A stretch of DNA of 64,000 nt, taken from contig OZ038526.1 of NCBI GenBank assembly GCA_964036665.1, forward strand, positions 33,046,001-33,110,000, in the 5' to 3' direction. The first letter of the stretch is position 1. Each line of letters begins with the position of its first letter. Positions 22,855 to 53,704 of this stretch are shown here, one piece after another. This stretch comes from Gordius sp. MW1. Its lineage: Eukaryota; Nematomorpha; Gordioida; Gordea; Gordiidae. The notes below the pieces were generated by a model. That model searched no databases. It was not told where the DNA came from and saw only the letters and a program-made list of their open reading frames with translations. The position numbers were made by a program, and so were the translations under genes.

Positions 22855-23197
22855 TTAAGTGCTTCGTAATTTAACGGCTTTGCGAATTTCATTGATTATG
22901 CGATATTGATTATTGGGATTATTACCCAATGCTTCTATAAGTTTTTGCAATTTAATACTCTCGATGCTTTTAAACTTATCAGCACCTATAGTTTGCCGAC
23001 AATCATCTTTCATCTCGCAAATATCGTCCGAATCTTCAATAGTTATGACTAAATGTTTCTTCGCATTATCGCGCGTTACGTTTATTTTTGGCGGAGATAG
23101 TATTTGAATCGGTTCATCTTCACTTACATTATTTTCAGTTTTTGTAAATGCACTTGGTTCAACCCTTTTCTGCGAGTCAGATTCAAACTTGCCTTTA
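22855..23197 (-). CDS. Gene copy 1, terminal exon 9
   Basis: 343 nt, the same as copy 2. It encodes KINVTRDNAKKHLVITIEDS and LQKLIEALGNNPNNQYRIIN, then EIRKAVKLRST and TAA. The segment HLVITIEDSDDI (hydrophobic core followed by acidic residues) resembles a SUMO-interaction motif and is identical in both copies. The acceptor chosen is CTAGTAG at 23198; the nearer AG at 23193 would break the frame. Confidence 0.75.
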
Positions 23198-26100
23198 CTA
23201 CTAGAAATGGATTTAAAAATTATTTATAGACCTGGTAAGCCATGTGTACATTTTAAAATAAATATTAATATAAAGCAAAGCAAGATAAGCCAGTCAAAAA
23301 GAAGTCATTTAATTAAGAATACAAGTCCACAAATAATGACCTCATAATATCATCCTTAGAGAATTTTGAGCAAAACAGTAATGTTTTGCGATTTTTCTAT
23401 AACCTGGAGATTTGAAAATAATGAGGTTAAAGGTGTATAAAATGGTCTTTTTAACGTCTTTGAAGCTAAATTCCCATACCGTTTTTTATTTATTTAATTT
23501 GTATTATGTAGACCTATAAGTCATTGATTAATCTAAAAAGCTAAAATAGTATTTTATTTGTTTCATTATATTTCATCGGTGTTAATCTAAACCACTAACT
23601 CTAGTCAAAATTCCTCTTTATCTGAGATAACAAAGTGTAGCATTTCACTCTTTCCCTATACATTTACCTTCAAAAAACAATGACTTTACCTTTATCCAAA
23701 TTAATTTAAATCTAAAAAACAAAAAAAAACTATTCCTTACTCAGCGTTAATTTATTTATAATAATTAATAGTCAGTACAAGGGATGGCTTTTTTGCAGGC
23801 TTATATTATATAACTCGCTTCACTAACCTTAAATCAAGCAACAAAATTTATAAATAAAATCCTAAGTGCAACATTAAGAGCCCATTAATGTTAGCCATCA
23901 TAAATTTACCTTTTTGGGGACGTTTTTAAAACCTCTTGAAAGGGTTTAAGATCTTTTGGACTTGAGGATTTTTGTTCCGTGGTTTCTAGAGAGGCTTTAA
24001 CCTTTTTATCACGTTTCTTAATTTTGGTCGTGGTTTCCTGACAATCGTAATTCATTTCCACTATTTTCTTGGACTTTTTCTTGCGAGGTAATTCAACTAC
24101 GCTTTCGTTATTGGGGTTATCAATGAGTGTTCGTTCTTTCTTTTTAGGTTTGCTTATTACGAAAACATTACTTTCATCTTGATCAACATCTAGGTTAAAC
24201 ATCGGCGCATCTACATTATGTAAGCTCTCTGCCTTTTTAACTTTGCTTTTTTTGACTTTAATCAATACATCTTTATTCTCATCGTTAACGTTATGGACGA
24301 CCTTGACCTTGTGTTTCTTTTTAGGCGAAGAGGGTTCTAAATTTAAACTCGTTTCTTGGTTATCGACCTCACTGATTGACGCCTTTTTAGATTTTTTTAG
24401 CTTTTTTGTGGCGTGTTTAGTCAACTCTTCGTGTATAAAACCAGTCGATTCAAATTCTAATTTTTTGCAAATAGTTATTTCCTTTGTTTCAGACTTTACC
24501 TCTTTTTGGTTATCGTCCCTATTAAGTTCCTGAGCTTCAATCTTTTCCTTTTTGCGGCTTTTCTTTTTTTCGGTAGGAAAATCTTTAGCTTCTCGTTTCT
24601 TAGATTTTACCGTTTTTTTCGAAGGTGTTTCGCTAAGCTCATTTATTATCTCTTCATCTTTACACCTTTCTATAATACAATCAGACTTTATATCAGCAAA
24701 TTCTATTATTTCGGGTGTTTTAAATTTTGACGATTTTTGTTTTAAAGACTTTCGATCACACACCTTCAACTTATTTTCTACTATTTGGCTTTTAACGGTG
24801 GAATCCGTTATATTTTTATGCTTCTTTTTAACCGGCATAGAGTCATGTAATTCCAGAACCTTATCCTCTAATTCGATATTTTCCGCTTTTATATCTTTTA
24901 ATTTCTTGCGTTTTTTTACTTTTACCGGAATATTATCATCAACACCGTGCTGTTCTTTAGCTTCGGAATGGGTATTTATATTATGCTCTTGTTTACAAGA
25001 TTTGGACGTGGGGTCAGTTTTGATCCGGTCCAAGATCCCTTCATCATACGATGAAACTAAAGATGATTCGTAGATGCGCAATTGTTCGGGCTTTAAACTC
25101 GTTCGGTTTTTTCTTATAATCTTCTCTATTTTTCGAAAATTCTTAACTACCGATGGTGGCCCCATGTCTGACAATTCCTGATCAGTCAAACTTTCATTTA
25201 GTTGGTTGTAGCTTTTCAAGGATTCAGATTTTGGCTTAGGAATGCAATTTTCTTTAAATATCATTTTATCTTTCTCCCTTAATTTTGTATCAGATTCGTA
25301 ATAAGCTCTCGCAATTTTACCGCCGTCAGAGTTATCAACTTCTTTCTTGATTTTCAAAAGAGTCTCGGGTTCCAGGGGCATAGCTTCGCTTTCAATTTCC
25401 TTGTGTCTGAGAATTTCGCTTAAATGGCTTCTCTCCTTTGCACGGCAAACCTCCTCCTCGCCTTGTTTCATCTTCCTTTTTGGAGTTGAACTCTGTGAAT
25501 CATTTTGCGAGTGTTTGGATATGTATGCATTATCAACCGGCTCCTGTTTTCCCACTATTTCGTTTTCATCCTTAATTTCAACAAAGGTGGAATCATTCTG
25601 CTCATCACAGTAATTTGCCAAGCGTTCTGAGCCGCGAACTTTGGCTTTGGGAAAACACTCATATTTGCCTTGATTTTTACTTTTTTTAAGTAGATTACCT
25701 TGGTATTCACAAATAAATATATGTTATAAATTGCATAAAGATTTAAATTATGGATGTCTAACATAATTTAAATTTGACAACTAAAAATTTTGAGGTCGAT
25801 AAAATGTTACCGGTTATGATAAAATGAAGGACTTTAATCATCCTCTTTTCATTCATATTTCCATGTAGGGGTAGATAAGTTTGTTTCATATCATCGAACC
25901 TAAAGTATACATGATTTACTTATGATAGTTTAAGGAAAAGCCATATAAAACGCTTGATTCTTGCAAAGGGAAAAAACAAGAGTATTACATTTAACAAACT
26001 AACCATAATAATATTTAAAAAACTTTTAAAATAAAGAAAAAGAGTTCCATCGCTTTAATTTAAGTAACTTAAAATCAGTAATTTTAAAGTTGAGCCGTCT

Positions 26101-29100
26101 TATAACATCCAAATGGTGATGTTCCATAATGTTGATGTTCCATGCAATTAAGACCATAAATCGTTAATTTGCTAAACTATTATTATAAATTGTACCTATT
26201 TTGATGTTAAACAAGAAAGATTTAGGTTAGTCTCTTTAAATTCAATAAAAGTTAGTATCAAAAATTTAATCAAATTTTTATTTCAATCTTGAGAGGTAAT
26301 GAGAGTCATTAGAATTTGAAGTGGCTTCAAGTACACAGGTCTACAAAAAAATCCCGCAATCGTACCAATATTTCTGATGAAAAATTTTAGACTGAACAAT
26401 ATTGTGTTTTTAGTTTTTTTCTAGTAGTCTAAATTATGTGATAAATGAGGTTAAAATCAAAAAAGACCTTTTTAAAGTTTTTGAAGCTATATTTACATGT
26501 TTTAAATTTATTTTTAACTATATTTATCTTATAGAGCAATTATTTATCTACAGGACCGTAATTTTTTTTTGTTTCACCCGTACTTTTAGTTAATGATCCC
26601 TAGGCCCCCAATAAGACACTGTCCCCCAGCAGTGAATCCAACAGTCCTGCTGATTAATAAATGGTCTTATAAATATTACAAAAAACAAATTTAAATGGCG
26701 TAGGTACGGCCTTGGAAAACGTTAATATGGCCATTTGTTGCACCTTTAACCTCACTAAATACAAAATCTAGACGATTAGAGAAAAAAACTATTCACCGTA
26801 AAATTATCTATCAGAATTATTTTTCATATTACGGGATTTAATCACAAAGTTAATATTTGTAGACCTGTGTTATTTTTGAAAAACAATTATATTCACTAAA
26901 TTATGTGACAAGATTTATACAATTACGTCCATATTATGGCTGTTAAATCAACTACTTTAACAACAAAGTATGCCTGGGCGTAGCCAGGAGAGCGGCTACC
27001 CCTCTCTAAATCCATAAATTAGTTATTAAAATTATGGCACAAATTTCAAAAACAGATCATTTAGCCCCTACCTAAAACATTATAGCCCCCCCCCCCCCTA
27101 AAATTCCAATGCTGGCTACGCCCATTAAAATATGTAAACCGTAAATTACCCAATGTAACAATTAACTCATAAATTTTGAAAGCAAATAAAGTACAAGCCA
27201 TTTAAGAGGCTCTACATTTTTTTGAGCTGCTCTTCGGGCATGTGAGCAGTGTCGTTAGATGCGGCGTTATAAAGTCGAGTGACTTTATGCCAGTCCATAG
27301 GCGATTCGGGGGTACCCTTAGAGCGTAACATAGCGGTAATGAGTAGAGCGTGCGCCACCTTTTCCGGCTTTTTTAACGCGACGAAAACGCGCAGTTTCGC
27401 GAAGAAGCTGTTCAAATAAGCCCGTTCGTAATAGACAGGCTGGGCGTTGATAACCTTCTTTTTATTTGTGAGGTTGACGAAAAGCAATCGTCTCAATTTG
27501 TGTGTCCTAAAACCCGGTACAAAAAGTAAGAGTTCACACATGAGATTAAAAATTAAATAAACACCGGTTGCCCGAGAGCAAGTTTAAATTTAAGAGGAGC
27601 AAAAAGTTTAGCTTTTTGCATTAAAAAAGGCCATATCATAATTTTATAAACATAAGGAGGTTTTTTCGATTTAAGTAGGAGAGGCAGGTGGTTCTTTCTG
27701 CCTTTTGACTGGTGTTGTAAAAACGGCTAGATTTTGTTTTGTCGATATTTGGTTTCAGTCGACTTAACATAAAGAGACAAAAGGTTTAAAAACAGACCAC
27801 AAAATCTTTGGTTTGCTGGTGTATAGTCCACTTAAACCAAAGATCGACCAAACAAAACCCAGCCGTTTTTATAACACTACTTCTGACTATATTCACTAAT
27901 ATTTTATAATTGTGGTCAACTCGTGCTTAGTAAATAGTCCGGGTCGTAGGGTGTACACCAGAGACCAGAAAAGCTCAGCCGGGCCGAACAACTGTCGTTA
28001 ATTCAGATTTTCGGGCCGGCCCAGACGGGCACTATATAGGATCGGAGAAATTCGGGTTCAATGAAATTTTTAAATAGTGTATTATTTTGTTTTCGCGTAG
28101 AATTGTCACTTTTTTATCTGCTGGTATAATATTTATAAATGGTATTATTTGTCGCAAAAAATCGAGATTTAAATTTAAAACACTTGGAAAATATAAGGAT
28201 CTACGGCTAAAAATTTGAAAAATTATAATTTCGGGCGAAGAAGTTCGACCAGCTTTTATGATTCGGGCATGGTCGAGCGGACACTTAGAAGGGTTCGGAC
28301 GGGCAATATAGTTATAAAAGCGGTCTGGGCGGGGTTCGGGCAAAAATATATAAACAAATCTGACCTCTGGTGTACACAATCGGTAGGCTTGTGCTTGGGA
28401 AGATCAACCAAAATGATAATCTGCAGATGGAAAGTTTGCAAACCTTAGCGGGCCTCTAAAATCCATTAAAACATGTATTTTCACGTTTAAATGAAGTCAT
28501 CATAGCAAATTCGCAGTTACGATGGTATCTCTCTACAAACAATACCACCTTCCCCCCCCCCCCTCCCAATAAAGCAATTCAATATTAAAAATGGTTAAGC
28601 ATATGTAGCACTCTCTTAGCCGAATCCCCGTTCTCCGAAGCCAGTATATACATACGGGTAGCACTAAAGTTCTTAAATTTCTCGCGTGAGCAATGCTCAC
28701 TATGTGCTATGCTCGAGCGCGCACACTGAGTTGTTTACTATGCGCGTTAGAACAATGAGTCTTGCTGCTATCTGCTCGAGTTTTTGCTGGGGCAATCTGC
28801 TCAATTCTTGAACATATTTTGCTGTTTCGACTCGCTGCTCGAGTATTTTTATATGCTACTGTTCTGCCTAGTGCAGCGAACAGCGAGCACTCATCGTGCT
28901 AACGAGCATAAACAGCTCAGTGTGCGTGCTCGCGTTTGGAGTTGAAGCAAGTTAGCAATTTAACAACTATAGGTAGCACATCCCAAAACTCACCAGTATT
29001 GACCGAAAATTTCTACGCAGGGGTCTAGGTGACAGGGGGGCAGGTCAGTACAGCTTTTGATCAGAGTCCTAACTATGCTTATCCAATCCACGTGAAGGCA

Positions 29101-31899
29101 ACATATGATAGAACGCAAAACTAGGGGCTCCACTTGCTGGGCCAAAGCCTCAAAATCGAAGTCCAACTTGTGATTGTAATGCCACTTTATAACTTGCACA
29201 AGCACGTCGTTGACCTTGGCAGGCCACCTAGAGCATTTGATGCCGTGCGTGAAGGCAGTTTTACATTTGAGCGATTCATAAGGATTCCCCGGGCCAACAG
29301 TATCCAACTCCACTAAGTTAAGGCTGGGCAAGAACGTCGGGGCTTCTAAATCTACGACCTGGATCTCAGGCCCGACGACTGGCTCTGAAATTGGCAGTGG
29401 TTCGTTCGGGATTGGGCAGGCCATGGGATTGTTGAACGACTTGCTTGCGAATGGGACCGAAAGGGTAGCGTTGGACACTGAATAGCGTAAAAACGTAAAA
29501 ACTATAGCTTAGTAGGGAGCGTGTTGTTAAAATGGAAATAGATTTAAAAGCAGAATTTCAATTTTCGAAATACATATATACTATGATAGCTGTAGTGTTG
29601 TAAAAACGGCTGGGTTTTGTACAAATTTTGACAAAGCCTAGAAGTCAACTAAAAAAACAGCCCAAAAAACCTTTGGTTTGTTTATGTTTAGTCGACTAAA
29701 AGCAAGGGTGGGCCAAACAAAACCCAGCCGTTTTTACGACACTAGATGGCAGCCATACATTTAACACGTGCACACACAATTTTCAAAGACGTTTACGTCA
29801 AATTATAGAGAGCTAAATCGATAGCTAATTAAACAAAAGACTGTAGCCGGGTTTAATAACAGTAGGGCGGGGGGGGGGAGAGAGGTTGAAGTGTTTAAAA
29901 AGTAATAAATTAGGATAAATTTCATCATTCACTCCGGTTAAACAAGGAAGGTTATAAAGTTTAAGGCAGATACCCTTCCACCTACCCCTATAGAGCCCCC
30001 TGTATACTCCTCTACTAAAGCCTATCAAAAATTGGCTTGGTTTTGTAAAATAATTCCCTTAAAGCACATATAAACTATCCAAATTTATTGCACGCACAAA
30101 AAAAAACAGATTAGCAATTACCAGAATTAAGGGTATTAGTTGTATTTTTGGGGGGTGAGCAGGGTATTTTTGGTATGGAGTTTCCTTTGATTTGTTCCAA
30201 AGTTTCCAAAAACAAGGCAATAAGTTGTGGGGGTCTATTCAAACTTTTCCCAATCTGTTCGCACACATAGTCTAATGTGTGGTTGGGATTTAGCTGGAGC
30301 GATTTGTACAAATTGTAACATAACTGAGCTTCGGGCTCTGAGAAGGGTCCAGTCACTTGAGGATTACTACTACCAACTAGCAATAGTTTAGCCCTGTAAT
30401 AGCAACTGTTCAAGCACCGACATATTCCCTTTCCTAAAATCATTAAAAAATATGATTGTCCAACAATATGGTTTAAAACATGACTTTTAAATGTAAAATT
30501 CAGGAACCTTTTAAACCCAGTCTTAATATAAGGTTTAATCAGGCGAGCCTGGCATGGCATGTAACTTTTAGTAAAATTTAAAACTTATTTAACACTATGT
30601 ATGTTAAAAAAGTTAATTGCAATTAATAGTCAATGGATAAGTATGATTAATGAAAGATTAATCCAAATTAACCTTATACAACTTACTAAATTTGTGTAGT
30701 AAATCTAGTTAATCCTGAATTTAGAGTAGAGGTTGAAAAAAGGATTACATTTTTTTAATTTTAATAAGTGCTATAGATGCAAAATATTATATTAATTATA
30801 ATTGATTTATAACACATTCAAATATTCCAGATAAAAAAATTATAAAATATTCTTAATGGGGGTTAAAAACTGAAATTACAATATTTATTTTGATCTAGTA
30901 ATTGTGGATATAATGAGTACCCATGTTGAGAAAACTAAGATTGCATTATAGGACTTTCAATAGTTGGAAAACTATTTAAAATGAGTTTGGGAAGAAAAAT
31001 AACTTTAAAATGTTTTAAAATGATTATTTGATGCATAATTTGTTATATTAAATATTATTAAATTAGTAAATAAATAAATGGCCATTATAAAATCAAGCGA
31101 TTATTTGTGCGATTTAATTGACCAAAAAATTATCAGATATAATTTAAAAATGTAGTTACTAAATCATAATTTAACTATCTTTTTATAAATTATTCAAAAT
31201 GTATTATAGTTATATAGATATGATTATAAAAGTTATAAAGATAAAATAAAATTTAACCTCACCTAATCTAGCATATAGTTTTGTCATTCTGTTGTAATCA
31301 ATAATCAACTGCTTCAATTTAATTGTGCCACACAGTGAAGAGTTATTGCCTTTACCAGTGTCGTTATAACTTAGTGTATCAGTAAGAATGTTGTAGCTAC
31401 AAGGCTTTTTCAATAGTATAGCAGATAATCTTTTGAACTGAGGTGGCTGATCTGCTAAAAAGGTACTCCAATTATTCAATAAAGTCATATTTTCAAATGC
31501 AACCCATTTTTTTGACCTCTGAGGTACATTTATTGCCACAGAATCCCCAACAAGAGGCTCAACTGATATAAGTAATATAAAAAATACAATAAAAAGCTTT
31601 ATAATATAGAAATAAGTTACTATACAAATAATCAACAATAAATATAAAAATTCAAAAGCTGTAATAATTAAATCCAGTGCTTCATACCTAGTTCATCTGG
31701 ATGATAAGGGTATGAAGAATATTCGGATTTATCGGGATTGATATAGAAACCTAGTGACATTATTAATAAAAGAATCATATATTATACTTTTAGCTATTAA
31801 ATATTGTATAAATTCAGTCATCACTTTTCGATTAATATTAGATACAATATCATTGGCCTTTTCCAACTCATTTTTTAATATTTCTAAGTTTTCGCCCAT
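22855..31899 (-). CDS. Nine-exon gene, copy 1; unknown lysine-rich protein (~1,260 aa)
   Basis: Exons (high to low coordinate): 31899-31788, 31750-31688, 31562-31263, 30433-30122, 29477-28994, 27506-27216, 25899-25811, 25698-23910, 23197-22855. The sum is 3,783 nt (1,261 codons with stop). Every junction has GT and AG, and exon phases agree with the paralogue at 38047-53704. Start: ATG in MGENLEILKNELEKAND, conserved in both copies. Residues ~1-550 are mixed, probably helical, and well conserved. They include a Cys-rich CRCLNSCYY at the start of exon 4 and VKVNDVLVQVIKWHY-like helices in exon 5. Residues ~551-1146 are Lys/Glu-rich and probably disordered, which suggests a nuclear protein. The last ~114 residues are conserved again. 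I do not recognise the family. The exon 6 donor (AT|GTAGAG) is the least certain junction. Confidence 0.75.
23910..25698 (-). CDS. Gene copy 1, exon 8: long lysine-rich region
   Basis: 1,789 nt, about 596 residues. Composition is dominated by K, E, D and S, with many basic clusters such as KVKKRKKLK, KKHK, KKSKKASISE and PRKKKSKKI, any of which could act as nuclear localisation signals. The exon has no ATG near its 5' end and begins directly after AAG at 25698, so it is not a separate intronless gene. The donor is AAAAAG|GTAAAT. Copy 2 is shorter by 29 codons, and phase is kept at both ends. No globular domain is evident. Confidence 0.75.
25811..25899 (-). CDS. Gene copy 1, exon 7 (short, found by comparison)
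   Basis: 89 nt between acceptor TTTAG and donor CG|GTAACA. It reads FDDMKQTYLPLHGNMNEKRM and on to HFIITG. The paralogous exon (40824-40912) is also 89 nt, in the same phase (one base in, one base out), and starts FDDLKQTYMPIPGTMSERR. It joins exons 6 and 8 in frame. Confidence 0.7.
26334..26869. mobile_element. CACAGGTCTACAAA-family foldback MITE in intron 6 of copy 1
   Basis: Ends CACAGGTCTACAAAAAAATC and TTTGTAGACCTGTG are inverted, with further inverted similarity inside (GAGGTTAAAATC near 26448 against CTTTAACCTCACTAAAT near 26742). A related but much diverged copy lies in intron 8 of both genes (about 23330-23490 and 38490-38640), and another is split in intron 5 of copy 2 (41678...50622). 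Confidence 0.7.
26971..27126. mobile_element. GCGTAGCCA MITE, short copy
   Basis: Ends TGGGCGTAGCCAGG and TGGCTACGCCCA are inverted. A C run (27086-27097) precedes the right end. No clear target duplication. Inserted in intron 6 of gene copy 1. Confidence 0.65.
27216..27506 (-). CDS. Gene copy 1, exon 6
   Basis: 291 nt encoding LRRLLFVNLTNKKKVINAQP, AYLNSFFAKLRVFVALKKPE and YNAASNDTAHMPEEQLKK. If read on past AT|GTAGAG it meets a TAG at once. In copy 2 the same read-through runs 28 codons further with no similarity. Homology stops exactly at the AT|GT, so I treat it as a donor and not as the gene end. Confidence 0.75.
27711..27880. mobile_element. TAGTGTTGTAAAAAC-family MITE in intron 5 of copy 1
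   Basis: Almost entirely inverted repeat: GGTGTTGTAAAAACGGCTAG against CAGCCGTTTTTATAACACTA. Flanks are TTTTGACT (27703-27710) and TTCTGACT (27881-27888), a 7-of-8 duplication. Confidence 0.85.
27959..28369. mobile_element. CGGGC-ended hAT MITE, 411 bp
   Basis: Begins CAGAGACCAGAAAAGCTCAG and ends AACAAATCTGACCTCTG. It is flanked by a perfect 8-bp duplication GTGTACAC (27951-27958 and 28370-28377). Lies in intron 5 of gene copy 1. The ~100-codon frames inside are not genes. Confidence 0.92.
28665..28971. mobile_element. Foldback hAT-type MITE, 307 bp, next to the exon 5 donor
   Basis: Ends TAAAGTTCTTAAATT and AATTTAACAACTATA are inverted. The interior pairs GCGCACACTGAGTTGTTTAC with GCATAAACAGCTCAGTGTGC. 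It is flanked by a perfect 8-bp duplication GGTAGCAC (28657-28664 and 28972-28979). A related copy is at about 36540-36785. Confidence 0.9.
28994..29477 (-). CDS. Gene copy 1, exon 5
   Basis: 484 nt. A Pro-rich first third is followed by a conserved block: KCKTAFTHGIKCSRWPAKVN, VLVQVIKWHYNHKLDFDFEA and SIVRTLIKSCTDLPPCHLDP. The donor is TG|GTGAGT. A MITE (28665-28971) sits only 14 nt beyond the donor but leaves it intact. Confidence 0.8.
29593..29744. mobile_element. TAGTGTTGTAAAAAC-family MITE in intron 4 of copy 1
   Basis: Ends TAGTGTTGTAAAAACGGCTG and CAGCCGTTTTTACGACACTA. Flanks are GATAGCTG and GATGGCAG (6 of 8). Absent from intron 4 of copy 2, so it inserted after the duplication. Confidence 0.8.
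30122..30433 (-). CDS. Gene copy 1, exon 4
   Basis: 312 nt, the same length as in copy 2. It encodes GKGICRCLNSCYYRAKLLLV, then GPFSEPEAQLCYNLYKSLQL and LDYVCEQIGKSLNRPPQLIA. The acceptor is TTTTAG and the donor G|GTAATT. Cysteine clustering at the exon start is kept in both copies. Confidence 0.8.
31263..31562 (-). CDS. Gene copy 1, exon 3
   Basis: 300 nt. It encodes EPLVGDSVAINVPQRSKKWV, a segment with FLADQPPQFKRLSAILLKKP, and LCGTIKLKQLIIDYNRMTKL. The acceptor is ATATCAG and the donor G|GTGAGG. Copy 2 has one extra codon in an Asn/Gly-rich loop. Confidence 0.8.
31688..31750 (-). CDS. Gene copy 1, exon 2
   Basis: 63 nt encoding SFYINPDKSEYSSYPYHPDE. The acceptor is CACTAG and the donor G|GTATGA. 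Only one substitution in the first 20 residues separates it from exon 2 of copy 2 (53489-53551). Confidence 0.75.
   Translation of the reverse strand, partial: VSISIPINPNILHTLIIQMN
31788..31899 (-). CDS. Gene copy 1, exon 1
   Basis: 112 nt, 37 codons plus one base, starting MGENLEILKNELEKANDIVS. The donor is AAAA|GTATAA. Exon 1 of copy 2 (53593-53704) has exactly the same length. The sequence predicts an amphipathic helix. Confidence 0.7.
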
Positions 31900-32035
31900 A
31901 TCTAATCAGTTATTTAGATGATGGTTAACATAAATATCTAACATACCTAATCAAAAAAGTTTACACACCAAAAACCAGTACCATGCGGTTTAGACAATTA
32001 GGTACACAAAAAATTAAAAAATGCGAACATAGACT
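31900..32035 (-). promoter_or_regulatory. Conserved 5' flank of gene copy 1 (promoter/5' UTR candidate)
   Basis: About 130 bp upstream of the start codon are conserved with 53705-53825, including the minus-strand complements of ACCTAATCAAAAAAGTT and ACAATTAGGTACACAAA. Beyond this, similarity falls. This is the most plausible place for the 5' UTR and core promoter. No TATA box is obvious. Confidence 0.4.
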
Positions 32036-33029
32036 GAATCAATAAATATATATAACTTCTTAGAAAATTTACACAAATGAGCAGTTTGAGTTAATGATTG
32101 CAAAACGTTTGACATATCCAATTAATTTTAGTGACGAGAGAATAAAAGTTTTGTAAACAATCCCGGGGTCGAGCTTTTTAATAATTAGAAAATTGCATCA
32201 TTTATTATGGACCTGGATCCTGCCCAGGGTTTATATATTTCTAACGCGTGGACAGATTGACCTAAAGAGGTCTATTACATGTCTCTAATATCGCATTCGT
32301 GTGTAATTAGAAGGTAAACAAAAGAGGTCAGATCAAAAATGGAAGAATCAAATATAACCTTAACAAGGTACGAGTTCAAGTGAATTTTAAAATGAAAGTA
32401 CATAAAGGAATAGCTGATTATTAAGTTTAACGAATGGCTAAGAAATATTTTGTAAAATTTAAGTTTGCCCCCCCCCCAAGATAGAATGCTAATTGCGCCA
32501 CTGTTTACCATTACTCCCCCATTAAGCTGTAATTTTTGAGAGACAGAGATACAAAATGGATTATTGGTCTAATTTAGTGTGAGAATGCTCAGGAGAGCAA
32601 GCTCATGAAAGGTTAGCCAGTAAGGTAGCAACATCAGGTGCAAACAAAGAAGGCGTATCAGCGGTAGGGCGCAGGGACGAAGCCAAGAAGTTCTTAATGT
32701 TTTACCAGCTTTTAATGTATAAACAATTGATGTGTTTAGTAGTATAGATTGTGTGAACTCATTTGTAACATGGATTCTAATGCGTTCAATGCCCACCAGA
32801 TTATGGAAACAACGAATACTGCTACTGATGGAGATCTAACCCTCTTTGATTGGTTAACAAAGAGGTCATAATGTCTACCACGTTTACGTTAAGATATGGC
32901 TGTCAGAGACGAAGAAAAACTTGCCAGTATTCCTAACCGACGTAAGGTGGCTGTTTTGAATCGAATTAAAGAGTATGAAGACTTTGTGTTGTTAAACATA
33001 GGCTAAACAGGCCAAAGACGGAGTGGTTT
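32036..33029. other. Intergenic stretch with pol-like fossil and a poly-C MITE end
   Basis: A C run at 32467-32476 followed by GCGCCACTG (near 32496) marks the end of a GCGTAGCCA-family element. From about 32770 the plus strand shows short peptide-like pieces (AVRDEEKLASIPNRRKVAVL) interrupted by stops, which may be the upstream part of the retroelement relic that follows. I see no intact gene. Confidence 0.4.
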
Positions 33030-34660: not shown

Positions 34661-35490
34661 GGTCGCCTGAGGCCCGACTAAACCTAAACTAATTGTTGTT
34701 GATTAAATGAATCTTACTCTCTATAAAATAAATTTTATACAGCATACAAAATATACTTTAAAACTTTAGCCCTTTGCCTATTTATAATATCATAAACATT
34801 GCACACTATTAAGAACTTAAGAAATAAATAAGTAAATTAATCAAAAGGCACATTTGTTTTAAATCTTATATATAAATTAGTTAACTAATCTAAAAAATAC
34901 ATCTAAAAATAAAAAAAGTTAAGTTCTAAATGTTTAAAAATTGCAAAAAAAAGATTTGCGATTATCAAAAGAAAATAAGTATATTTTTTCAAAATAATCT
35001 AAGGCTTGAGGGCCAAAGGTTTGAGTACTTGTCGCAAAGCGACATAAAATTACCGAATCGTGAAGTTTCGAGTATTTTAAAATTTATAGTGCTTCTCCCG
35101 CAGAGAGTGGATCTTTGTTTTGGTTAAAAGACAAATACATCGGTACATGTAACCGAGCTTATAGAGTACTTGGGCTATCTGATCTTTTGCTATATTTACA
35201 GAGGCCTGTGGGTTCGATAATGGAAGGGAGACCAGTTATTAAATAAAGCTTATTCTATATAAATTTGATTTTTGAATTAAAATAATTTTTTGAAAAGTGA
35301 TAGCAAAAAAAATGATTTCTCATTATTCCAAACTTATTATTCTTTAATGTTTTGATAGAAGCTAATTCCTTTTATATCTACATGGACAAACTTCAAATGA
35401 TAGATTAGCCTTTAAATTTTATTTCAGTTATTAGGACAGGCTCGGGTTGAGAAAATATTTTCTGTCGGGCTCTAACTCTACACACTCAAA
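34645..35490. mobile_element. Old CGGGC-ended hAT relic (copy 1 side)
   Basis: Starts CTTGCACGGGTCGCCTGAGG and ends near GGCTCGGGTTGAG / TGTCGGGCTC (35440-35470). The same element, at the same place relative to the Ty3-like relic, begins at about 54675 in copy 2, so it was inserted before the duplication. A 65-codon frame (34930-35127) is too degraded to assign. Confidence 0.55.
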
Positions 35491-36529: not shown

Positions 36530-36539
36530 ACTAACTCGT

Positions 36540-37520: not shown

Positions 37521-37950
37521 CGTCAAGGATTATCTTTGTGAAATGGGGGAACTTTAGAGGATATACTTGATTCAACTTAACCATTGCCTATGCGCTCAAA
37601 AATTTAAATATTAAGCTAATCGGTTTCAAAGTCAAAATACATCCCTGACATCCTATATTTTTTAACAAATGTTGATCAAAAAAAACCTTAGATTTATCGA
37701 TGTGTAATTTGTGTTACGGGTATGATTACAATAATTCCTATTCAAAACCATATAAAATTTTTTTAATTATATTTAAAAATCTTCATTTTTGTAAGAAATG
37801 CTTATTCCAGTTCTACCCTAGTTTCCTGCACACATTAAGGCCTAAAAAATGTGCAAAAGAAAACTTATAAATCAAAGGAATAAATTCTTTTTACATTGTT
37901 TTAAAGAAGGTATGACAGCTATTTGATCGTTAACCTCAAACATGACGTGA

Positions 37951-44300: not shown

Positions 44301-47300
44301 TGTGCTGAGATTAAGGCTGCACCGATATCGGTATCGGTATCACGATTTTTTAACGATATCGGTATCGGTTATTAATCGACCGATACCGATACCGATACTT
44401 GAAACTTTTTTTTTACAAATATTTTATATTTGTTAGAGCTGTATATCTATATACTTTTTAAATTAAATTTTACTTAATTGCTGTTAAATCTAATTTATTT
44501 TTTCATTGATTCATTCATTCAAATTTCTATCACCACTTATTTATATTATTATGTGTTGTAGGTGTGAAATTATTTGCATAAAAGATATACCAATGGTTCT
44601 GTTGTAGGTATGATTTAGTTAATGTTTACAAACTAATGAAGGCGCTTACGCAAATGAGATAGCGTGCTAACTAAAATTAAAAGTAAAACGAATATGCTAA
44701 TGGCAGTCTCAAGTTAGTGGAGACGTGCAATATATCCAACTGTCTGGAAGCATTCTCTATTCAAATGAGAGGCGCTTCGACAGGGTTTTAAATAGCGAGA
44801 TGTTGACCACGAAAGATCAGTTATTTTATTCAGTTATTATATTTAGTTATTTTATTTAGTTATTTTGTTTAGTTATTTTTTAGTCCTGCAGGAGGAGGTT
44901 GTTAGTTTTTTAATCAGGACACGTTTAGTCCTGTGGGTGGGGGGTTGTTTATTTCTCATTGTAGACACGTGGTTCCAGCGGCAATAATCCATCAAGAGCC
45001 AGACCAGATACCTGCCCTTCTCCCTTACTACAATTATCAACCACAAGCTAAACATCCCGCAATTAAATACCTCCGATTACACTTAGTTGACACTCATCCT
45101 ACCGGACCGATTCCACGACGATCTCTCAAGGCCATCATCCTAACACTTACATATTCACTTATATTTATTGATTGACTGGAAAAACATTATTCAATCGATT
45201 GATCGTGATTTGTCGTTATTACACTTGTTGTACTTATTGATTGGCTGGAAATAAAGATTACGAAATGCTTGACATATTAATTGGTAGCACGAGATTAGGA
45301 GATGCTTGACATATTAATTGGTAGCACGAGGAGAAAGAAACCCACGAGCGGACGCCAGCAACAAGCCGAAGAACCGTCATAGCACGAGATTCGTGACGTT
45401 AGACGTTCGAAGTGCATACAAAAGAAAAGGAAAGAAGGACCACGTTGTCTCAACTGTGTTAGTACAATTGTAAGGAGAACCCCCGAAGGACAAACGAATT
45501 TGGTAGGACGAGCAAAAGTAATCCGAAGAACCGTCAGAGGTATAATTTGTTTTTGATAGAAAAATCTTCGTTAATCTTAATTATTTTAATTTTTGTAGTG
45601 TCACTTGATAATTAGAATATTTTTGAGGTTAAATTATTGATTCTTACGTTGTATTTTCAATTAGTCTGCTATATTTTACATATTATTGATATATTCTGCT
45701 ATAGTGTACATATTATTAATATATTCTTACGTAATATTTTGCTTTATTGTTTTTTCATTTTAAATAAAAAATGGACTCGATAATTTAACTCATTTGATTG
45801 TGGGTTATATTTTTGCCAAAAGAGGCGTTTTCATTTTTTTTAATGTAATTTTTATCGACAAGTTGTTTGTCTTATCATTAATGATCTTGGTCTTTTGAGT
45901 ATAGATTACCTCCTGTAGAGGGACTTTAATTAAATTGTGGGTGTCAACGCTATAAATTTATTTTCTTCATTTTTGTTCGATCACTTATCGAATTTTTATT
46001 ATCATGTGTAATTTTATTAATTGTGGCCATAAGTGAAAAGATGTTTTCTCATGGTTTTAGCACAGATAATAATTGTATATTTTTGGTAACTAAAATCGCT
46101 TATGCAAATGAGTAGGGTGAATAATTTTTAAAGTAACACAGCTCACTATAGACAATATATAGGCGACAGAGTAGCAACGTTCTAACGGTATGCAAGATAA
46201 TAATGATAATTTTGTTGTCAGGGGCACACAGGAAAATTCTCTAGATCCTGGCCCCCGTAACTTAACGCTCATTTATGGTTTTTCACAAACTCCGGTGGTT
46301 TATTTAAATATTGAAGGTAAGCAAATAAATTTTTTGGTAGATTCTGGGGTCTCAATTTATGTTATAAGTAAATGTAATTTTGTTAAAATGATGACCTTTT
46401 AAAAGCATAAATAAATAAAAGGCATGTTTTAGTAGAACAATTAGACGGTTCGAAGATTAAACTTGTCGGGAATACTAAAGTTCGAGTATGTGCAAACGAG
46501 GAAGTTTTAGAATTAAAGTAATTCGTTATCGATGAGAAATTAGATAATATTATGGGTCCTATGGTTAATTGGCGGGACATTGGTTAAAACTATAGTGGTA
46601 GAAATATGAAAATCAATTGTTCAATTAATAATGCTGATGGCCATGCAACACCCGGTTTCAAGGTAGCATCTATGCATAAATCCTTGGTTGTTATTAATGA
46701 GGCAATGGATTCTGTTAATGAGCCAACCTCGGTGTTAGGGGCAAGGGTTTTCGATAATAAGCCTACGACCCCTGTTGGGTTGATTGTGATGGTCAGTACG
46801 TCGGGAGACTGTGGCATTAGAACATTGATAGAATTAACGTGGAATATAGTTGATTTTTTCGTGAGAAACTAGGTTGTTTGAATGATAACGTTTTGTCGAT
46901 AAGGGTTCACTCAGATGCAAGTCCTCGTTCTACCCGTCTAATACCTTTTATTTGGGTTGATAAGGTCAATGACATTATAAATGTTTGATAGATTTTTAAT
47001 AACCCCTACTTAGAATCGCAATAATTTTAGCTAATTTAAAAAGTTCTCAAATCTTTTCAAAGATGGATCTTAGGAAGGCTTACTTTCAGTTACGTGTAGA
47101 CGTTAAGACATCTAATATTTCAACAAAAAACACCGATAGAGGTGTGGTACGGAGTTCCTGCAGCAGCTTTACCTTGGCCCTAGATGGGAGGTGCAGTAAA
47201 AGGTAAAAGGGGAAGGTGTTGTAGGTGTGAAATTATTTGCATAAAAGATATACCAATGGTTCTGTTGTAGGTATGATTTAGTTAATGTTTACAAACTAAT

Positions 47301-50300
47301 GAAGGCGCTTACGCAAATGAGATAGCGTGCTAACTAAAATTAAAAGTAAAACGAATATGCTAATGGCAGTCTCAAGTTAGTGGAGACGTGCAATATATCC
47401 AACTGTCTGGAAGCATTCTCTATTCAAATGAGAGGCGCTTCGACAGGGTTTTAAATAGCGAGATGTTGACCACGAAAGATCAGTTATTTTATTCAGTTAT
47501 TATATTTAGTTATTTTATTTAGTTATTTTGTTTAGTTATTTTTTAGTCCTGCAGGAGGAGGTTGTTAGTTTTTTAATCAGGACACGTTTAGTCCTGTGGG
47601 TGGGGGGTTGTTTATTTCTCATTGTAGACACGTGGTTCCAGCGGCAATAATCCATCAAGAGCCAGACCAGATACCTGCCCTTCTCCCTTACTACAATTAT
47701 CAACCACAAGCTAAACATCCCGCAATTAAATACCTCCGATTACACTTAGTTGACACTCATCCTACCGGACCGATTCCACGACGATCTCTCAAGGCCATCA
47801 TCCTAACACTTACATATTCACTTATATTTATTGATTGACTGGAAAAACATTATTCAATCGATTGATCGTGATTTGTCGTTATTACACTTGTTGTACTTAT
47901 TGATTGGCTGGAAATAAAGATTACGAAATGCTTGACATATTAATTGGTAGCACGAGATTAGGAGATGCTTGACATATTATTATGTAAGTTAGTTTATATT
48001 TAAAATTTATAATATAATGTATTTATTTTTATATTATATATTGTATATACGATTTTTAATATATATATTATATAATATTTATCAACAAAGCATTTAAAAT
48101 ATTTTAAATTAGAATAACATTCTATGTTGTGTATTATTAATTCAAATGGCCTTACATTGACTTTATTTAAATTAAATTATATTTAGGTCTAAAAGCAAGT
48201 CATTAATTTGGAATTATTTTATAATTGATGAGAACTCAGCACATAATGCAGCCTGTACAATTGATAACTGCAATAAAAAAGTTTTAAGAGGTGGCAAGAC
48301 ATCAATTAATTTTAACACCACAAATCTTAGAAAACATATCCTTAATAATCATCCAATAAAATATAAACAATTATTATTAGAGGAGAAATCAAAGACATTG
48401 ACTGATAATAACTTCAAATCTGATTCCAAATTAGTTCAACCAAAAATTAAAGACCTTTTCAACAATGTAAAAAAGTGGGATATTAATAATCACAATTCCA
48501 AAATTATTATTAGAGATGATCTGTAAAGACAACCAACCACTATCTGTAGTGTCTGACAAAGGATTTGTTAATTTAATAAATCATTTACCTCCCCAATATA
48601 CAATCCCCAGTAGGAAGTATTTCACCAGTTTATTAAATATATCTTATGAAGATTTATCACAAAAAATTAAAGAAGAGCTGAGTGTTGAAAAACACCTAAG
48701 CTTTACAATTGATATATGGACCCGTGATTCTGGTCAAGATTCTTTGTTTTGTCTAACTTCACATTATATAGACAACAAATATCATTTTAAACAGAGGACA
48801 TTAAATACTGATAACCACACTGCTATCAATATTTCTTCATTGATAGCAGATTTATTTACCTATTGGGGAATAAAGAAAAATTCTGTTCATCTTATCGTTA
48901 GAGATAATGGTAGGAATATAGCAGCAGGCTGTAGACTATCAAATCATGAAAGTATATCCTGTTTGGCTCATTCCCTTCAATTAGTTATACAAAAATGCCT
49001 GTTAGGGCAAGAGAATATACCTAATCTTCTAACAAAGTCAAGAAGATTAGTGACCCATTTTAAACATTCCTCCCTATCAAATTTTAAATTGGATAAAATT
49101 CAAATGAAATTTAACCTACCCCAACACAAATTAATTCAAGATGAGCCCACACGCTGGAACTCATCCTATCTAATGATTGAAAGGTTATTGGAACAGAAGG
49201 AGGCTTTAACTCTGTATACTCTACAAAACACTGTTCCTGTGTTTATAGATACTAATGAATGGATCCTCATGGAGAAATTGATGTTGGCATTGGAACCTTT
49301 CTTTAGAGTTACAAAGGAATTGAGTTACACCAATTGTTTAATAAGTGTGACTATACCTTTTGTTGAAATTTTAAAGAAAGAATTAGCTACATATGATAAT
49401 ATTTCTGATATGTGTTTATAACAATTTAGAACAACCATGACAAATGAATTAGTTGAAAGGTAATTTATATATTTACCAAGGATTTGTAATAGCTTAATTA
49501 TAATTATGTTTTCATACATATACCAAAATGACAATTTTGTCATAGCAACAATTTTGGATCCAAGATTTAAAAATATTTTCTTGCCTGGATCTGTTGAGTA
49601 TAGATCACGGTTAGTTAAAGCATATAAGGATATTGAAAGTAATGTGGCGTCCTCATCTACACCTATTTTGCCAGGTAGGATATATAATTGTACTTCTAAA
49701 ATAATTATTAAGAGAACGACGAACCATTACTCTGAAACAACTTACGAAAACAAAGAAATTTAATATATGGGATACATATAATGAAACAGTGGATTCAATG
49801 GCTGGAACTATTGATACAAACATCATCATAGGTATATTTACTTAGCTAATATTAATTTTCATTTTAAGGTGATCCGTGTTTATTGGAATTAGACCTATAT
49901 CTCAAAACACCAATTTACAAGGGTAATAGAATCATAAACGAAACATCAATGGGATCATATGTAAATCCATTAGAATATTGGGCAACAAATAGTTCCGATT
50001 TGCCAATATTAGCAACACTGGCCAGAAAATATCTGTCGTCACCCGCCACATCTATCCCTTCTGAATTTATTTTTAGTATAACTGGTGATATTGATAGTCC
50101 ACATAGAAGATCTCTTCTACCGGAGACTATTGAAAAATTACTATTTATGAAAAAATTTTTGGAATATTTTAAATAAAGCTTTATAAATATTAACAGGTGT
50201 CATTTTTATAAGATGTAAAATATCGGTATCGGTATATTTATTTAAATATCGGTAGTATCGGTATCGGTTAAAAATTTGATATCGGTGCAGCCCTAATATA

Positions 50301-53300
50301 GATATACAGCTCTAACAAATATAAAATATTTGTAAAAAAAGTTTCAAGTATCGGTATCGGTCGATTAATAACCGATACCGATATCGTTAAAAAATCGTGA
50401 TATCGGTACCGATACCGATATCGGTGCACCCTATATTAACACATCTCTCTCCCCCCCCTCCCTTTCTCCTTCTCTTCCACACCACTCCCATATCTAGCTA
50501 AATACATTAAAAGGGGGCGGGAGTAGAGATGTATAATTGTTCAACCTAAAATTCTCTATCAAAATTAATCCGATTGCGAAATGTTTATTCTTGTAAACCT
50601 GTGAAATTTTCTCAAACAAAACTTGGTTTTTTGGATAGGCAAGATGTGCGGATACTTCTCTCCACCTCCAATAGCTATGCCCATGATAAGATTATTTAGG
50701 TCTAACAAAATTAAAGCTTAATAATTGTGTTCAAACGTGGGCTTGATAGATAGTTCGTATCATAAGATAAACACAACATTGGTAGACACGTACTTGGCAA
50801 AATTGATATTAGAAAAATAGGCGGATTTAGAGGTTGCAAACTCCATGCAGCGAAACTTAACAAACTCATAAAATCCATCAAAAAAGTATATTCACCTTAA
50901 AATAAAATCATCTTAGCATTTAGTAATAAGCGGCACCACCATAGACCAGTTCCCGTTACCCACTAAACATTTAGTTAAACACATCACGCGCCTCACCAGT
51001 AATGGGCGAACATTTGTAAGCAAGGATCGAGGTAACGGAGGGGCAGATTGGTACAACTTTTGATCAGGGTTCTGACTATGCTTTGCCAATCCACCTCAAA
51101 GCAGGATAAGATGGAACGCAAAATTCCGGGCGTCACTTGTTGGGCTAATGCTTCAAAATCGAAACCCAACTCGTATTTGTAATGCCACTTTATAACTTGC
51201 ACGAGCACGACGGTGACCTTGGAAGGCCACTTGGAACATAGGATGCCTTGGGTGAAGGCAGCTCTGCATTTATGGGAATCATATGGATTCCCAGAATTCC
51301 CAGGGCCAGCACTAACCAAAGCCACTAAGCGAAGGCTGGAGGACATCGGGGGGTTTGAAACTCTAACCTGGCTGTCGAACTCGACAGGAATTGAGAATGA
51401 TTGTTGTGGTAGGGTCGGGATCGGGCAGGACAGCTCACCAAAAGACGACTGGCTTGCGAATGGGACGGAGGGGATGATGTTGGACACTGAGTACGGTAAA
51501 AACGTAAAAAAAACACAGTTTAGTAGGATTATATGCAAAAGGAGAATTTGTGGCTAAAATGTATTTGAAAAGGCGAGGACTCGTTTTTTAAAAGGTTTTC
51601 CTCTATGGTAGTAAACGATACATTATGATGTATAATTTAAGCTATACACAACATTTATTTTGCAATATAGAGAGATACATTTGTATTTAATTTATACAAA
51701 AATTGCAGCCCCAAGGGGGTGGGGGGTTAAAGGGTTTAAAGTAATCATTTAGGAAGGGACAGTTTATATCACCCACACTACCGTTAAAAACGAAAGGTTA
51801 GGCAACTAACCTTCCATCTTCCCCACATCCTTTACTAAAGCTTATTAAAAAATGACTTAGTTTTTGTAAATCATTCTTTTTTAACACATACAAACTATAC
51901 ATATTTATCAGACACAAAACAAATTAGCATATTACCAGTGTTAAGAATATTAGTTGTATTTTTGGGTGGTGAGCAGGCTATTTTTGGTATGGAGTTTTCT
52001 TTAATTTGTTCTAAAGTTTCCAAAAATAAGTCAATAAGTTGTGGGGGTCTATTCAAACTTTTCCCAATCTGTTCGCACACGTAGTCTAACGTGTGGTTGG
52101 GATTCAGATGGAGCGATTTGTACAAATTGTAACACAAATGAGCTTCGGGTTCCGAGAAGGGTCCAGTTACTTGGGGATTACCACTACCAACTAGCACCAG
52201 TTTAGCTCTGTAATAGCAACTGTTTAAGCACCGACATATTCCCTTTCCTAAAATTATAAAGAAAATTTTAATAAATAATTGGGTTTAAAAATTCGATAAA
52301 ATTTCCAATCTAGGCTGACCTTATGAAATATGTGCAAAATCTTATGTTTATATATATTAAGATTAAAGCCTTGCAAAATTGTTATTAATTGGCCAGAGCC
52401 CTGTCTGACATGTAACTCGTGCTAAAAATTAGATCTTACATATATTAATAAAGTTAATTGCAATTAATACTCAATAAATAAGTAAGATTAAAGAATGATT
52501 AATCCAAATTAACTTTTACAATTTGATATATTTGTGTTATAAATCAAACTTTAATCATGAATTTTGATTAGCAAAAAATGATCACATTATTTTTTATAAA
52601 TTTCAATATGTGCCAAGATGCAAAATATTATATTAATTATAATTAATTTTTAACACATTCAAATATTTCCAATAATAGATCCTTAGAAATATTCTTTACA
52701 AAAATTAAAATCTGATGTAATAATACTTATTATGATTTAGTAATTATGTATAAAATGTGTACAGGAATTTGTATTTTACCAAAAAACTGAAAAAAAATTT
52801 CTGGAAGGAAAAAAATTCCTTTAAAAATTATTAAATTAATTATTTGATGCATGATTCACATCAAGTTACTTTAGAAATTGATAGGACACCATTATATAAT
52901 CAAGCAATTATTTGTGTAATTTAATTGATCAAAAAATTATCAAATTTGTTTAAAAAATGTAGTTATCAAATCATATTTAACTATTTTTTATAAGTTGTTC
53001 AAAATATATTATTATATTTAGATATGATTATAGCATTTATAAAAGAGATAATTAAATCTAACCTAATCTAGCATATAGTTTTGTGATCCTATTGTAATCA
53101 ATGATCAACTGTTTTAATTTAATTGTGCCACAGAGAGATGAGTTATTGCCTTTACCAGTGCCATTGTTAAAATTTAATGTATCAGTTAGAATGTTGTAGC
53201 TACAAGGCTTTTTCAATAGTATTGCAGATAATCTTTTGAAATGAGGTGGCTGATCTGCTAAAAAAGTATTCCAATTATGCAATAAAGTCATATCTTCAAA

Positions 53301-53704
53301 TGCAACCCATTTTTTTGACCTCTGAGGTACATTTATTGCCACAGAATCCCCAACAAGAGACTCAACTGAAATAAGTATTATAAAAAATAAAAACTTTATA
53401 ATGCAGAAATAAGTTATTAACCAAATAGACAAGAATAAAGAAAAAAATTCAAACTGCTATAATAATAATTAAATCCAGTGCTGCATACCTATTTCATCTG
53501 GATGATAAGGGTATGAAGAATATTGGGATTTATCGGGATTGATGTAGAAACCTTATGACATTATTTATAAAAAAAGATTAGATAGATTATACTTTTAGCC
53601 ATTAAATATTGTATAAAATCCGTCATTAATTTTTGATTAAAATTAGATAAAATATTATTTGCCTTTTCCAGCTCATTTCTTGATATCTCTAAGTTTTCGC
53701 CCAT
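38047..53704 (-). CDS. Nine-exon gene, copy 2; unknown lysine-rich protein (~1,236 aa)
   Basis: Exons (high to low): 53704-53593, 53551-53489, 53365-53063, 52247-51936, 51486-50997, 41536-41240, 40912-40824, 40709-39008, 38389-38047. The sum is 3,711 nt (1,237 codons with stop). All introns have GT...AG, and phases equal those of copy 1. The protein keeps the same layout: conserved N-terminal half, Lys-rich exon 8, conserved C-terminus ending LRST. Both copies keep the frame despite clear amino-acid divergence, which argues that both are under constraint. Intron 5 is 9.5 kb because of nested transposons (41678-50622), yet its splice sites are intact. Weakest junction: the exon 6 donor AT|GTCAGA. 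Function unknown. Confidence 0.75.
39008..40709 (-). CDS. Gene copy 2, exon 8: long lysine-rich region
   Basis: 1,702 nt, about 567 residues. It is Lys/Glu-rich with basic clusters (KLKKIKKLK, RRKKKKTEAQ, PRKKKPKKI) and is alignable with copy 1 through anchors such as RIKTDLTPEICEQEQNIN and KTPEIIEFA. The frame is open throughout and begins after AAAG at 40709. The open frame continues past the donor (AAAAAAAG|GTATCG at 39008) into intron sequence. Confidence 0.75.
40824..40912 (-). CDS. Gene copy 2, exon 7
   Basis: 89 nt encoding FDDLKQTYMPIPGTMSERRI and on to FTLTG. Acceptor ATTAG, donor TG|GTAAAC. Same length and phase as 25811-25899. Confidence 0.7.
41240..41536 (-). CDS. Gene copy 2, exon 6
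   Basis: 297 nt encoding LMQLFYLNLTDEKTLNNAQS, AYLDSFFTRLRVFVALKKPE and ESNDSPHMTGEQLKK. The open frame runs on 28 codons past AT|GTCAGA without similarity to copy 1. I take the AT|GT as donor because it joins exon 7 in frame. Confidence 0.72.
42006..42203. mobile_element. TAGTGTTGTAAAAAC-family MITE in intron 5 of copy 2
   Basis: Ends GTGGTAAAACGGCTAGGC and CAGCCGTTTTCACAACACTA. Flanks are TAGGCGCA (41998-42005) and TATACGCA (42204-42211), 6 of 8. The target differs from that of the copy 1 intron 5 element, so the two inserted independently. Confidence 0.75.
42361..44311 (-). pseudogene. hAT transposase, copy A (truncated and frameshifted)
   Basis: From 44311 downwards the minus strand holds the BED-type zinc-finger region, then MICKDNQPLSVVSDKGFANL (44028), FTIDIWTRDS and LIVRDNRRNI. 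The central part follows, then LEYWATNSSDLPILATLARK and PATSIPS. A one-base deletion near 43384 and a 32-bp tandem duplication at 42448-42511 (AGAAGGGATAGATGTGGCGG...) destroy the reading frame. The N-terminus is cut off by the insertion of copy B. Nearly identical to copy B, so it decayed recently. Confidence 0.85.
44554..45316 (+). repeat. 5' LTR (763 bp)
   Basis: Begins TGTTGTAGGTGTGAAATTAT and ends GATGCTTGACATATTA. Near its end (45267-45293) it contains a copy of its own LTR/primer-site junction, CTTGACATATTAATTGGTAG, which is present in both LTRs. The small frames in it are identical in the 3' LTR and are not genes. Confidence 0.9.
45317..45335 (+). promoter_or_regulatory. Probable primer-binding site
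   Basis: ATTGGTAGCACGAGGAGAA lies directly after the 5' LTR. TGGTAGCA matches the CCA-containing 3' end expected of an initiator-Met-type tRNA over 8 nt and then diverges, so the primer identity is tentative. Confidence 0.45.
46190..47216 (+). pseudogene. Degenerate pol of the LTR element (protease and start of RT)
   Basis: 46190-46402 includes VYLNIEGKQINFLVDSGVS, with LVDSG matching the active-site pattern of retroelement aspartic proteases (D-S/T-G). Near 47060 the frame reads KMDLRKAYFQLRV, which is the motif A region of Ty3-type reverse transcriptase. The sequence breaks off there and goes straight to the polypurine tract. Catalytic motif C, RNase H and integrase are missing. No gag is recognisable in 45336-46189. 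Confidence 0.7.
47217..47979 (+). repeat. 3' LTR (763 bp)
   Basis: Same length and ends as the 5' LTR, followed by TTATG and the resumed leader of hAT copy B. I found no mismatch to the 5' LTR on visual comparison. Confidence 0.9.
48194..50176 (+). pseudogene. hAT transposase, copy B (nearly complete, broken)
   Basis: A BED-type zinc finger CTIDNC...HILNNH (about 48253-48350) opens the protein, probably after an acceptor TTATATTTAG. The frame slips by one base near 48500, and MICKDNQPLSVVSDKGFVNL then runs 301 codons to a stop at 49419. It includes FTIDIWTRDS, LIVRDNGRNI and SCLAHSLQLVIQKCLLG, typical of the hAT catalytic region. After further stops come NFVIATILDPRFKNIF and the C-terminal dimerisation block LEYWATNSSDLPILATLARK...PATSIPSEFIFSITG. 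The usual SER is SEF here. The near-48500 slip is shared with copy A, so the parent was already damaged or uses an unseen intron or shift. Confidence 0.85.
50299..50432 (-). repeat. 5' terminus of hAT copy A
   Basis: Reverse complement of 44318-44450: CAGCTCTAACAAATATAAAA and AAGTTTCAAGTATCGGTATC are shared. It ends GGTGCACCCT next to ATATTAAC. Together with 42224 it defines the original insertion of copy A. Confidence 0.85.
50997..51486 (-). CDS. Gene copy 2, exon 5
   Basis: 490 nt, two codons longer than copy 1. The Pro/Ser-rich first third has diverged. KCRAAFTQGILCSKWPSKVT, VLVQVIKWHYKYELGFDFEA and SIVRTLIKSCTNLPLRYLDP are conserved. Donor TG|GTGAGG. Confidence 0.8.
51936..52247 (-). CDS. 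Gene copy 2, exon 4
   Basis: 312 nt. From GPFSEPEAHLCYNLYKSLHL to LDYVCEQIGKSLNRPPQLID it is nearly identical to copy 1, making this one of the best-conserved parts of the protein. Donor G|GTAATA. Confidence 0.8.
53063..53365 (-). CDS. Gene copy 2, exon 3
   Basis: 303 nt, one codon longer than copy 1 within FNNGTGKGNNSS. VPQRSKKWVAFEDMTLLHNW and the FLADQPPHFKRLSAILLKKP block are almost unchanged. Donor G|GTTAGA. Confidence 0.8.
53489..53551 (-). CDS. Gene copy 2, exon 2
   Basis: 63 nt encoding SFYINPDKSQYSSYPYHPDE. Acceptor CATAAG, donor G|GTATGC. Confidence 0.75.
   Translation of the reverse strand, partial: VSTSIPINPNILHTLIIQMK
53593..53704 (-). CDS. Gene copy 2, exon 1
   Basis: 112 nt encoding MGENLEISRNELEKANNILS and on to YLMAK, with donor AAAA|GTATAA as in copy 1. 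Confidence 0.7.

Follow-up and report, generated by a model that had tools for sequence, protein, structure and literature searches.

TTF1 binds the terminators of the rDNA and carries a lysine-rich partner region N-terminal to its DNA-binding part. DMTF1 resembles TTF1 in general architecture, and tandem duplicates of ttf1 exist in zebrafish. A literature search for publications on TTF1 paralogues found no relevant one. One published account (PMC11358750) describes TTF1 as acting in initiation and termination by Pol I and in polar arrest of the replication fork, places the regulatory region of the mouse protein at the N-terminus, and gives two MybADs and two MybRs for Reb1. In this study we analyze a 64,000-nucleotide stretch of DNA from Gordius sp. 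MW1 (the window), in which two neighboring genes, A and B, belong to a family of which five copies were found in the genome. We propose, at about even confidence, that A and B are members, without a visible lesion, of a TTF1-like family of DNA-binding nuclear proteins whose lysine-rich part is C-terminal, and that they are not a transposon. If the relation to TTF1 is true, the family would be a diverged invertebrate TTF1-type factor with a reversed layout and a tandem expansion, and would allow the joint evolution of rDNA terminator proteins and their sites to be tested in nature; if it is false, we are left with a protein family that is under constraint, is not known to Pfam and was found in five copies in a single genome. 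In both cases, the reconstruction of the exons from raw sequence is upheld.

That reconstruction began with an initial annotation, made from the letters of the DNA, which described a tandem pair of nine-exon genes. We rebuilt both by a splice-site search in which the exon lengths of the annotation were fixed and the exon starts were limited to ranges drawn from open stretches (Table 1). The search returned a single solution for gene A (31899-22855) and three solutions for gene B (53704-38047), all alike save for the acceptor and donor of the 1,702-nt exon 8. As had been claimed, all borders are of the GT...AG type (16/16 introns) and the intron phases of A and B are identical (1,1,1,1,2,2,1,2); the claimed totals were likewise obtained, with a coding sequence of 3,783 nt in A (1,260 amino acids plus stop) and 3,711 nt in B (1,236 amino acids plus stop). 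Both reading frames are open throughout, and a lesion is seen in neither. The splice junctions are predictions from conservation between the copies. The two proteins are 74% identical over residues 1-550, 56% in the middle part and 78% in the tail. Lysine makes up 17-19% of the middle part (19% in A, from residue 551 to the last 114), and the conserved tail of A, B and a further copy, C, contains LVITIEDSDD, which we take to be a SUMO-interaction-like motif (SIM).

The pair is part of a larger family. When the N-terminal 551 residues were searched against the 211.8-Mb genome (E<=0.1), 30 exon matches were obtained, which group in five loci (A-E). Four of these lie in the order D-A-B-C inside 95 kb of contig C8, and the divergent copy E lies on contig C6; C, D and E are all outside the window. 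The description as a tandem pair is therefore accurate in that A and B are neighbors with the same structure, but too narrow with regard to copy number. With copy E as the query against the whole genome there was no sixth locus at E<=1, a search that more diverged copies could escape, and the conserved tail as a query against the whole genome matched A, B, C and D only. For C, D and E we picked models by likeness to the exons of A with the phase preserved, and in these models introns 1-6 lie at places corresponding to those of A and are all GT...AG. The first intron is short in every copy: 37 nt in A, 41 nt in B, 35 nt in the model of C and 37 nt in those of D and E. Over the N-terminal half, copy E shares 39-42% identity with the other copies, with dS saturated; it has a lysine-rich frame downstream of that half. 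In C, exon 8 contains an insert of ~0.7 kb between 9-bp direct repeats; in D, exons 1-8 are open and several stops fall in the last exon (exon 9). Within the cluster, only A and B read without a visible lesion. The best explanation for the cluster of A, B, C and D is expansion through local duplication. Scans of viral and prokaryotic sequence collections, with two short peptide patterns per collection, confirmed no relatives there.

Table 1. Features of the family. Positions of the blocks and of genes A and B are those of the window; copies C, D and E are given by contig.
Feature	Position	Strand	Remarks
Duplicated block, copy A	22639..36029		upstream limit from scattered matches
Duplicated block, copy B	37836..55619		upstream limit from scattered matches
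Gene A exon 1	31788..31899	-	start ATG at 31899
Gene A exon 2	31688..31750	-	
Gene A exon 3	31263..31562	-	with start of exon 4, segment F1 (LGKGIxRCLNSCYYRAK); matches first Myb-associated part of reconstructed TTF1
Gene A exon 4	30122..30433	-	segment F2 (~30186-30356), putatively Myb/SANT-like in fold
Gene A exon 5	28994..29477	-	variable linker followed by segment F3, which has no significant match to TTF1
Gene A exon 6	27216..27506	-	segment F4 begins (DW motif)
Gene A exon 7	25811..25899	-	segment F4 ends
Gene A exon 8	23910..25698	-	lysine-rich
Gene A exon 9	22855..23197	-	conserved tail, SIM-like LVITIEDSDD, stop at 22855
Gene B exon 1	53593..53704	-	
Gene B exon 2	53489..53551	-	
Gene B exon 3	53063..53365	-	
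Gene B exon 4	51936..52247	-	putative Myb/SANT-like segment
Gene B exon 5	50997..51486	-	
Gene B intron 5	41537..50996		9,460 nt (1,487 nt in A); mostly mobile-element sequence
Gene B exon 6	41240..41536	-	
Gene B exon 7	40824..40912	-	
Gene B exon 8	39008..40709	-	lysine-rich; equal-length alternatives 40700-38999 and 40679-38978
Gene B exon 9	38047..38389	-	conserved tail, SIM-like motif
Copy D	C8:33034076-33044469	minus	N-half search
Copy C	C8:33118993-33128943	plus	N-half search
Copy E	C6: about 22738552-22742218	minus	N-half search; divergent, alone on C6

The initial annotation held that the protein matches no recognized family, and in searches of domain and structure databases this stood. 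Pfam, searched with single exons, with the spliced N-terminal halves of A and B and with the N-terminal halves of all five copies, gave nothing above the curated cut-offs; the sub-threshold matches differ between copies, and the strongest of them is to FNIP_M, in copy E (E 0.0047; 17.5 bits vs a cut-off of 25). The Myb models of Pfam (PF13921 or PF00249) matched none of the five copies at a setting of E<=10, at which the filters discard most weak matches. In the PDB, searched by sequence and by profile with the N-terminal half, there was no meaningful chain: the matches at E 0.69-0.76 were to two chains of one kinase (BRI1-like 2) and were dismissed, and a five-row profile found no match at E<=10. 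The absence of a family match may reflect divergence, and the claim has to be amended in one respect, an apparent weak colinear resemblance to TTF1 in parts of exons 3-4 and 6-7.

Our reference for human TTF1 was a reconstructed sequence, not a database record, in fragments of 225 and 321 residues. The 225-residue fragment matches PF13921 at 4.7e-16 and reaches S. pombe Reb1 (5eyb) at E 0.018 only, from which it follows that the TTF1/Reb1 family diverges fast. Comparison with copy E brings out the pattern KLxARLGKGIxRCLNSCYYRA in exon 3 and early exon 4, GPFxExExxxC...CEQIGxxLNR in exon 4 and, in exons 6-7, a DW present in four of the five copies and followed by K...Y; to our eye these are reminiscent of the two Myb-associated parts and the first Myb repeat of TTF1. 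Aligned by hhalign to the reconstructed 321-residue fragment, the five-copy profile gave a best local score of 24.9, which none of 300 shuffles reached (maximum 23.0), and a colinear sum of 45.5, which none of 200 shuffles reached (maximum 41.9); hhalign's own probability for the best alignment is 2.4% (E 0.02). The window and the loci (without L035) contain 99 open frames with a length of 180 aa or more, and after removal of the five family members the other 94 served as decoys. None of these 94 frames, which are shorter on average (266 aa), reached 24.9 or 45.5, the closest being two near misses at 23.8 and 43.1. In global mode the 225-residue piece scored 8.1 vs a maximum of 8.8 in 60 shuffles. 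When four segments of the family (F1-F4) and four of TTF1 (T1-T4) were delimited by eye after reading the sequences, the colinear pairs gave z of 4.6 for F1-T1, 3.2 for F2-T2, -0.75 for F3-T3 and 6.5 for F4-T4 (0, 1, 44 and 0 of 60 shuffles, respectively, at or above the score), and the 12 off-diagonal pairs gave z from -0.26 to 4.2. F2 is closer to T1 (z 4.2) than to T2, and T4, T2 and T1 are all better partners for F3 than T3 is. We treat the apparent resemblance in three of the four segments as a lead and not as proof of membership. A search for a canonical TTF1 gene in the genome with the reconstructed fragments did not find one, a negative of little weight since the same searches also missed E and the cluster; a locus at C1:11217007 that the reconstructed TTF1 matched was rejected, as it reads as retrotransposon DNA.

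Set beside TTF1, the family shows what may be a weak colinear similarity to the reconstructed sequence in both Myb-associated parts and, less clearly, in the first Myb repeat, and in both a lysine-rich region accompanies the DNA-binding or DNA-binding-like part. Unlike TTF1, the family has no Pfam Myb domain and no match to the second Myb repeat, has a linker of variable sequence where exons 4 and 5 meet, shows a SIM-like motif in the tail and has four of its copies in a cluster. The layout differs as well: mouse TTF1 has its regulatory region at the N-terminus, whereas the lysine-rich exon 8 is C-terminal in A and B, and in E the lysine-rich frame lies downstream. The proposed MybAD-Myb-Myb-MybAD order is that of the DNA-binding domain of S. 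pombe Reb1 (5eyb), but a match in sequence is absent, since the score of the Reb1 fragment does not leave the range spanned by 8 shuffles and the profile has no PDB match.

Much of the above could also be read as describing a genuinely new, lineage-restricted, lysine-rich nuclear family unrelated to TTF1, the profile match being due to chance or to a convergent helical pattern. The lack of any significant Pfam or PDB match even with the five-copy profile, the hhalign probability of 2-3%, the failure of F3 to match, the better fit of F2 to T1 and the near-miss decoys are all consistent with this explanation, to which we give a substantial chance, though one short of even; what counts against it is that the two local matches follow the order of TTF1's two Myb-associated parts and that no shuffle (0/300 and 0/200) attains the scores.

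A different Myb/SANT chromatin protein (of the SNAPC4, DMTF1 or GON4L/FLASH class) in place of TTF1 would account for exon 4, which appears from its sequence to resemble a trihelical SANT-type segment, and further Myb-type genes are present elsewhere in the genome. This is improbable, however, given that DMTF1, which aligns strongly with TTF1 when both are reconstructed sequences (130.8), scores only 13.0 against the five-copy profile, a value reached by 160 of 200 shuffles; c-Myb, like the Reb1 fragment, falls inside the range of 8 shuffles. Two Myb loci, on contigs C2 and C5, look by reading like a telomere-type Myb gene and a SNAPC4-like gene and are separate from the family. NELF-A, FLASH/GON4L and TIMELESS also came up as candidate identities and were set aside.

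Whatever their affinity, A and B are constrained. Over 1,212 aligned codons, dN/dS between them is 0.466 by the method of Nei and Gojobori (NG86; bootstrap 0.39-0.56), which is not near 1. By exon, the ratio is 0.165 in exon 3, 0.124 in exon 4, 0.53 in exon 5, 0.52 in exon 6, 0.54 in exon 8 and 0.288 in exon 9, with intervals that extend above 1 for exons 1, 2, 6 and 7. With C as the outgroup and 537 codons of exons 1-7, branch omega is 0.34 (0.23-0.53) for A and 0.48 (0.32-0.84) for B, and reaches 1 in 0% (A) and 1% (B) of the usable bootstraps (400 drawn). These rates show that both A and B evolve under purifying selection, in agreement with the earlier view that both probably are under selection. 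That view had been drawn from the equal phases, which are insufficient as proof because copies inherit their phases, and it is the rate test that carries the argument. The idea that A and B are degenerating duplicates or a gene borne by a mobile element, and not functional proteins, draws on the interruption of C in exon 8, the stops of D in exon 9 and the mobile-element sequence inside intron 5 of B, but is very improbable in view of frames open over 1,260 and 1,236 codons, a dN/dS of 0.47 overall and 0.12-0.17 in exons 3-4, and five copies found in the genome with no Pfam TE domain. Transposable element genes have a high copy number and a transposase or RT domain, whereas the present search yielded five copies, whose introns occupy corresponding places, and Pfam gave no TE domain in the exons searched; the block does not look like a transposable element.

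The genes themselves have the extent first described, but the duplicated DNA reaches beyond them. Regional homology between A and B begins ~200 nt beyond the stop codons, takes in the introns and ends near 36.0 kb on the A side and 55.6 kb on the B side, its upstream portion consisting of scattered weaker matches. Because the homology spans introns and flanks, A and B are a product of tandem DNA duplication and not of retroposition. Divergence is uneven along the genes: each of the six pairwise comparisons of A, B, C and D gives a dS of 0.23-0.33 for exons 1-4 and a higher value, 0.44-0.99, for exons 5-7. The bootstrap interval of the difference excludes zero in each of the six, by a small margin in two cases (lower ends of 0.01 and 0.02). 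Among the six introns compared between A and B (all but 5 and 6), divergence is 0.18-0.34 in introns 1-3 and 0.44-0.58 in introns 4, 7 and 8. The simplest reading of the lower dS in exons 1-4 is that it suggests gene conversion among the copies over the 5' half, with regional differences in mutation rate a possible alternative source of the contrast.

Taking the TTF1-like reading as a guide, the product would be a nuclear protein of about 1,240-1,260 residues, the N-terminal 550 of which would be folded into a helical block with its closest likeness in TTF1's DNA-binding part, in the order Myb-associated, Myb, Myb, Myb-associated. Diverged Myb-like repeats in the front half are predicted to bind DNA, the lysine-rich stretch, presumably disordered, would add charge and nuclear or nucleolar retention, and the conserved tail is predicted to hold a likely SUMO-interaction motif. 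By analogy with TTF1 at rDNA terminators, the most likely role for such a protein would be that of a roadblock or organizer at the rDNA. A bolder version, which we think unlikely, is that of a TTF1-type family expanded in this lineage and reversed in domain order, with a DNA-binding front kept similar by gene conversion and a fast-diverging rear; its paralogues could serve different rDNA variants, or germline and somatic classes of rDNA, co-evolving with the terminators.

Intron 5 of B holds several mobile elements. An LTR retrotransposon at window positions 44554-47979 has two repeats of ~764 bp that are 100% identical, TTATG flanks, a polypurine run before the 3' repeat and a protease-like frame (by reading), and is probably a recent insertion. 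It is enclosed by an inverted hAT-like pair (42213-44452 and 48235-50432), the members of which are about 97% alike over 2.1 kb; the hAT label is a reading of the frames, in a region where Pfam gave no match. Elsewhere in the window, a minisatellite with units of about 108-129 bp lies, by reading, at both ends in opposite orientation (51-1218 and 63187-63784), and a 2.6-kb palindrome at 6473-9090, 92% over its whole span, contains internal tandem repeats of about 130 bp.

Some features of other parts of the assembly were also observed. Contig C8 starts with (CCCTAA)n. The start of contig C9 (1.37 Mb) is repetitive and GC-rich over C9:1-10000 (57%, where 4-kb steps of the window have 27-40% GC), and Rfam at the gathering threshold gave no match in that interval. 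Contig C12 (14,798 bp) reads as the mitochondrial genome: its cox1 frame matches PDB chains of cytochrome c oxidase subunit 1 over nearly the whole length, a short tandem repeat array lies upstream of cox1, nad1 and nad2 are on the minus strand, and nad3-nad4L-nad4-nad5 follow cox3 on the plus strand (gene names by reading). Compared with the best PDB chain, four of the eight AGR codons of cox1 coincide with serines, and AAA coincides with a conserved lysine (positions by eye). Such features fit a bilaterian invertebrate which, judged by its code, is neither a flatworm nor a tunicate. The ascidian mitochondrial code was rejected for C12 on the same four serines and on the lack, by reading, of any cox1 AGR codon at a glycine, and codon usage on this contig appears compatible with mitochondrial code 5.
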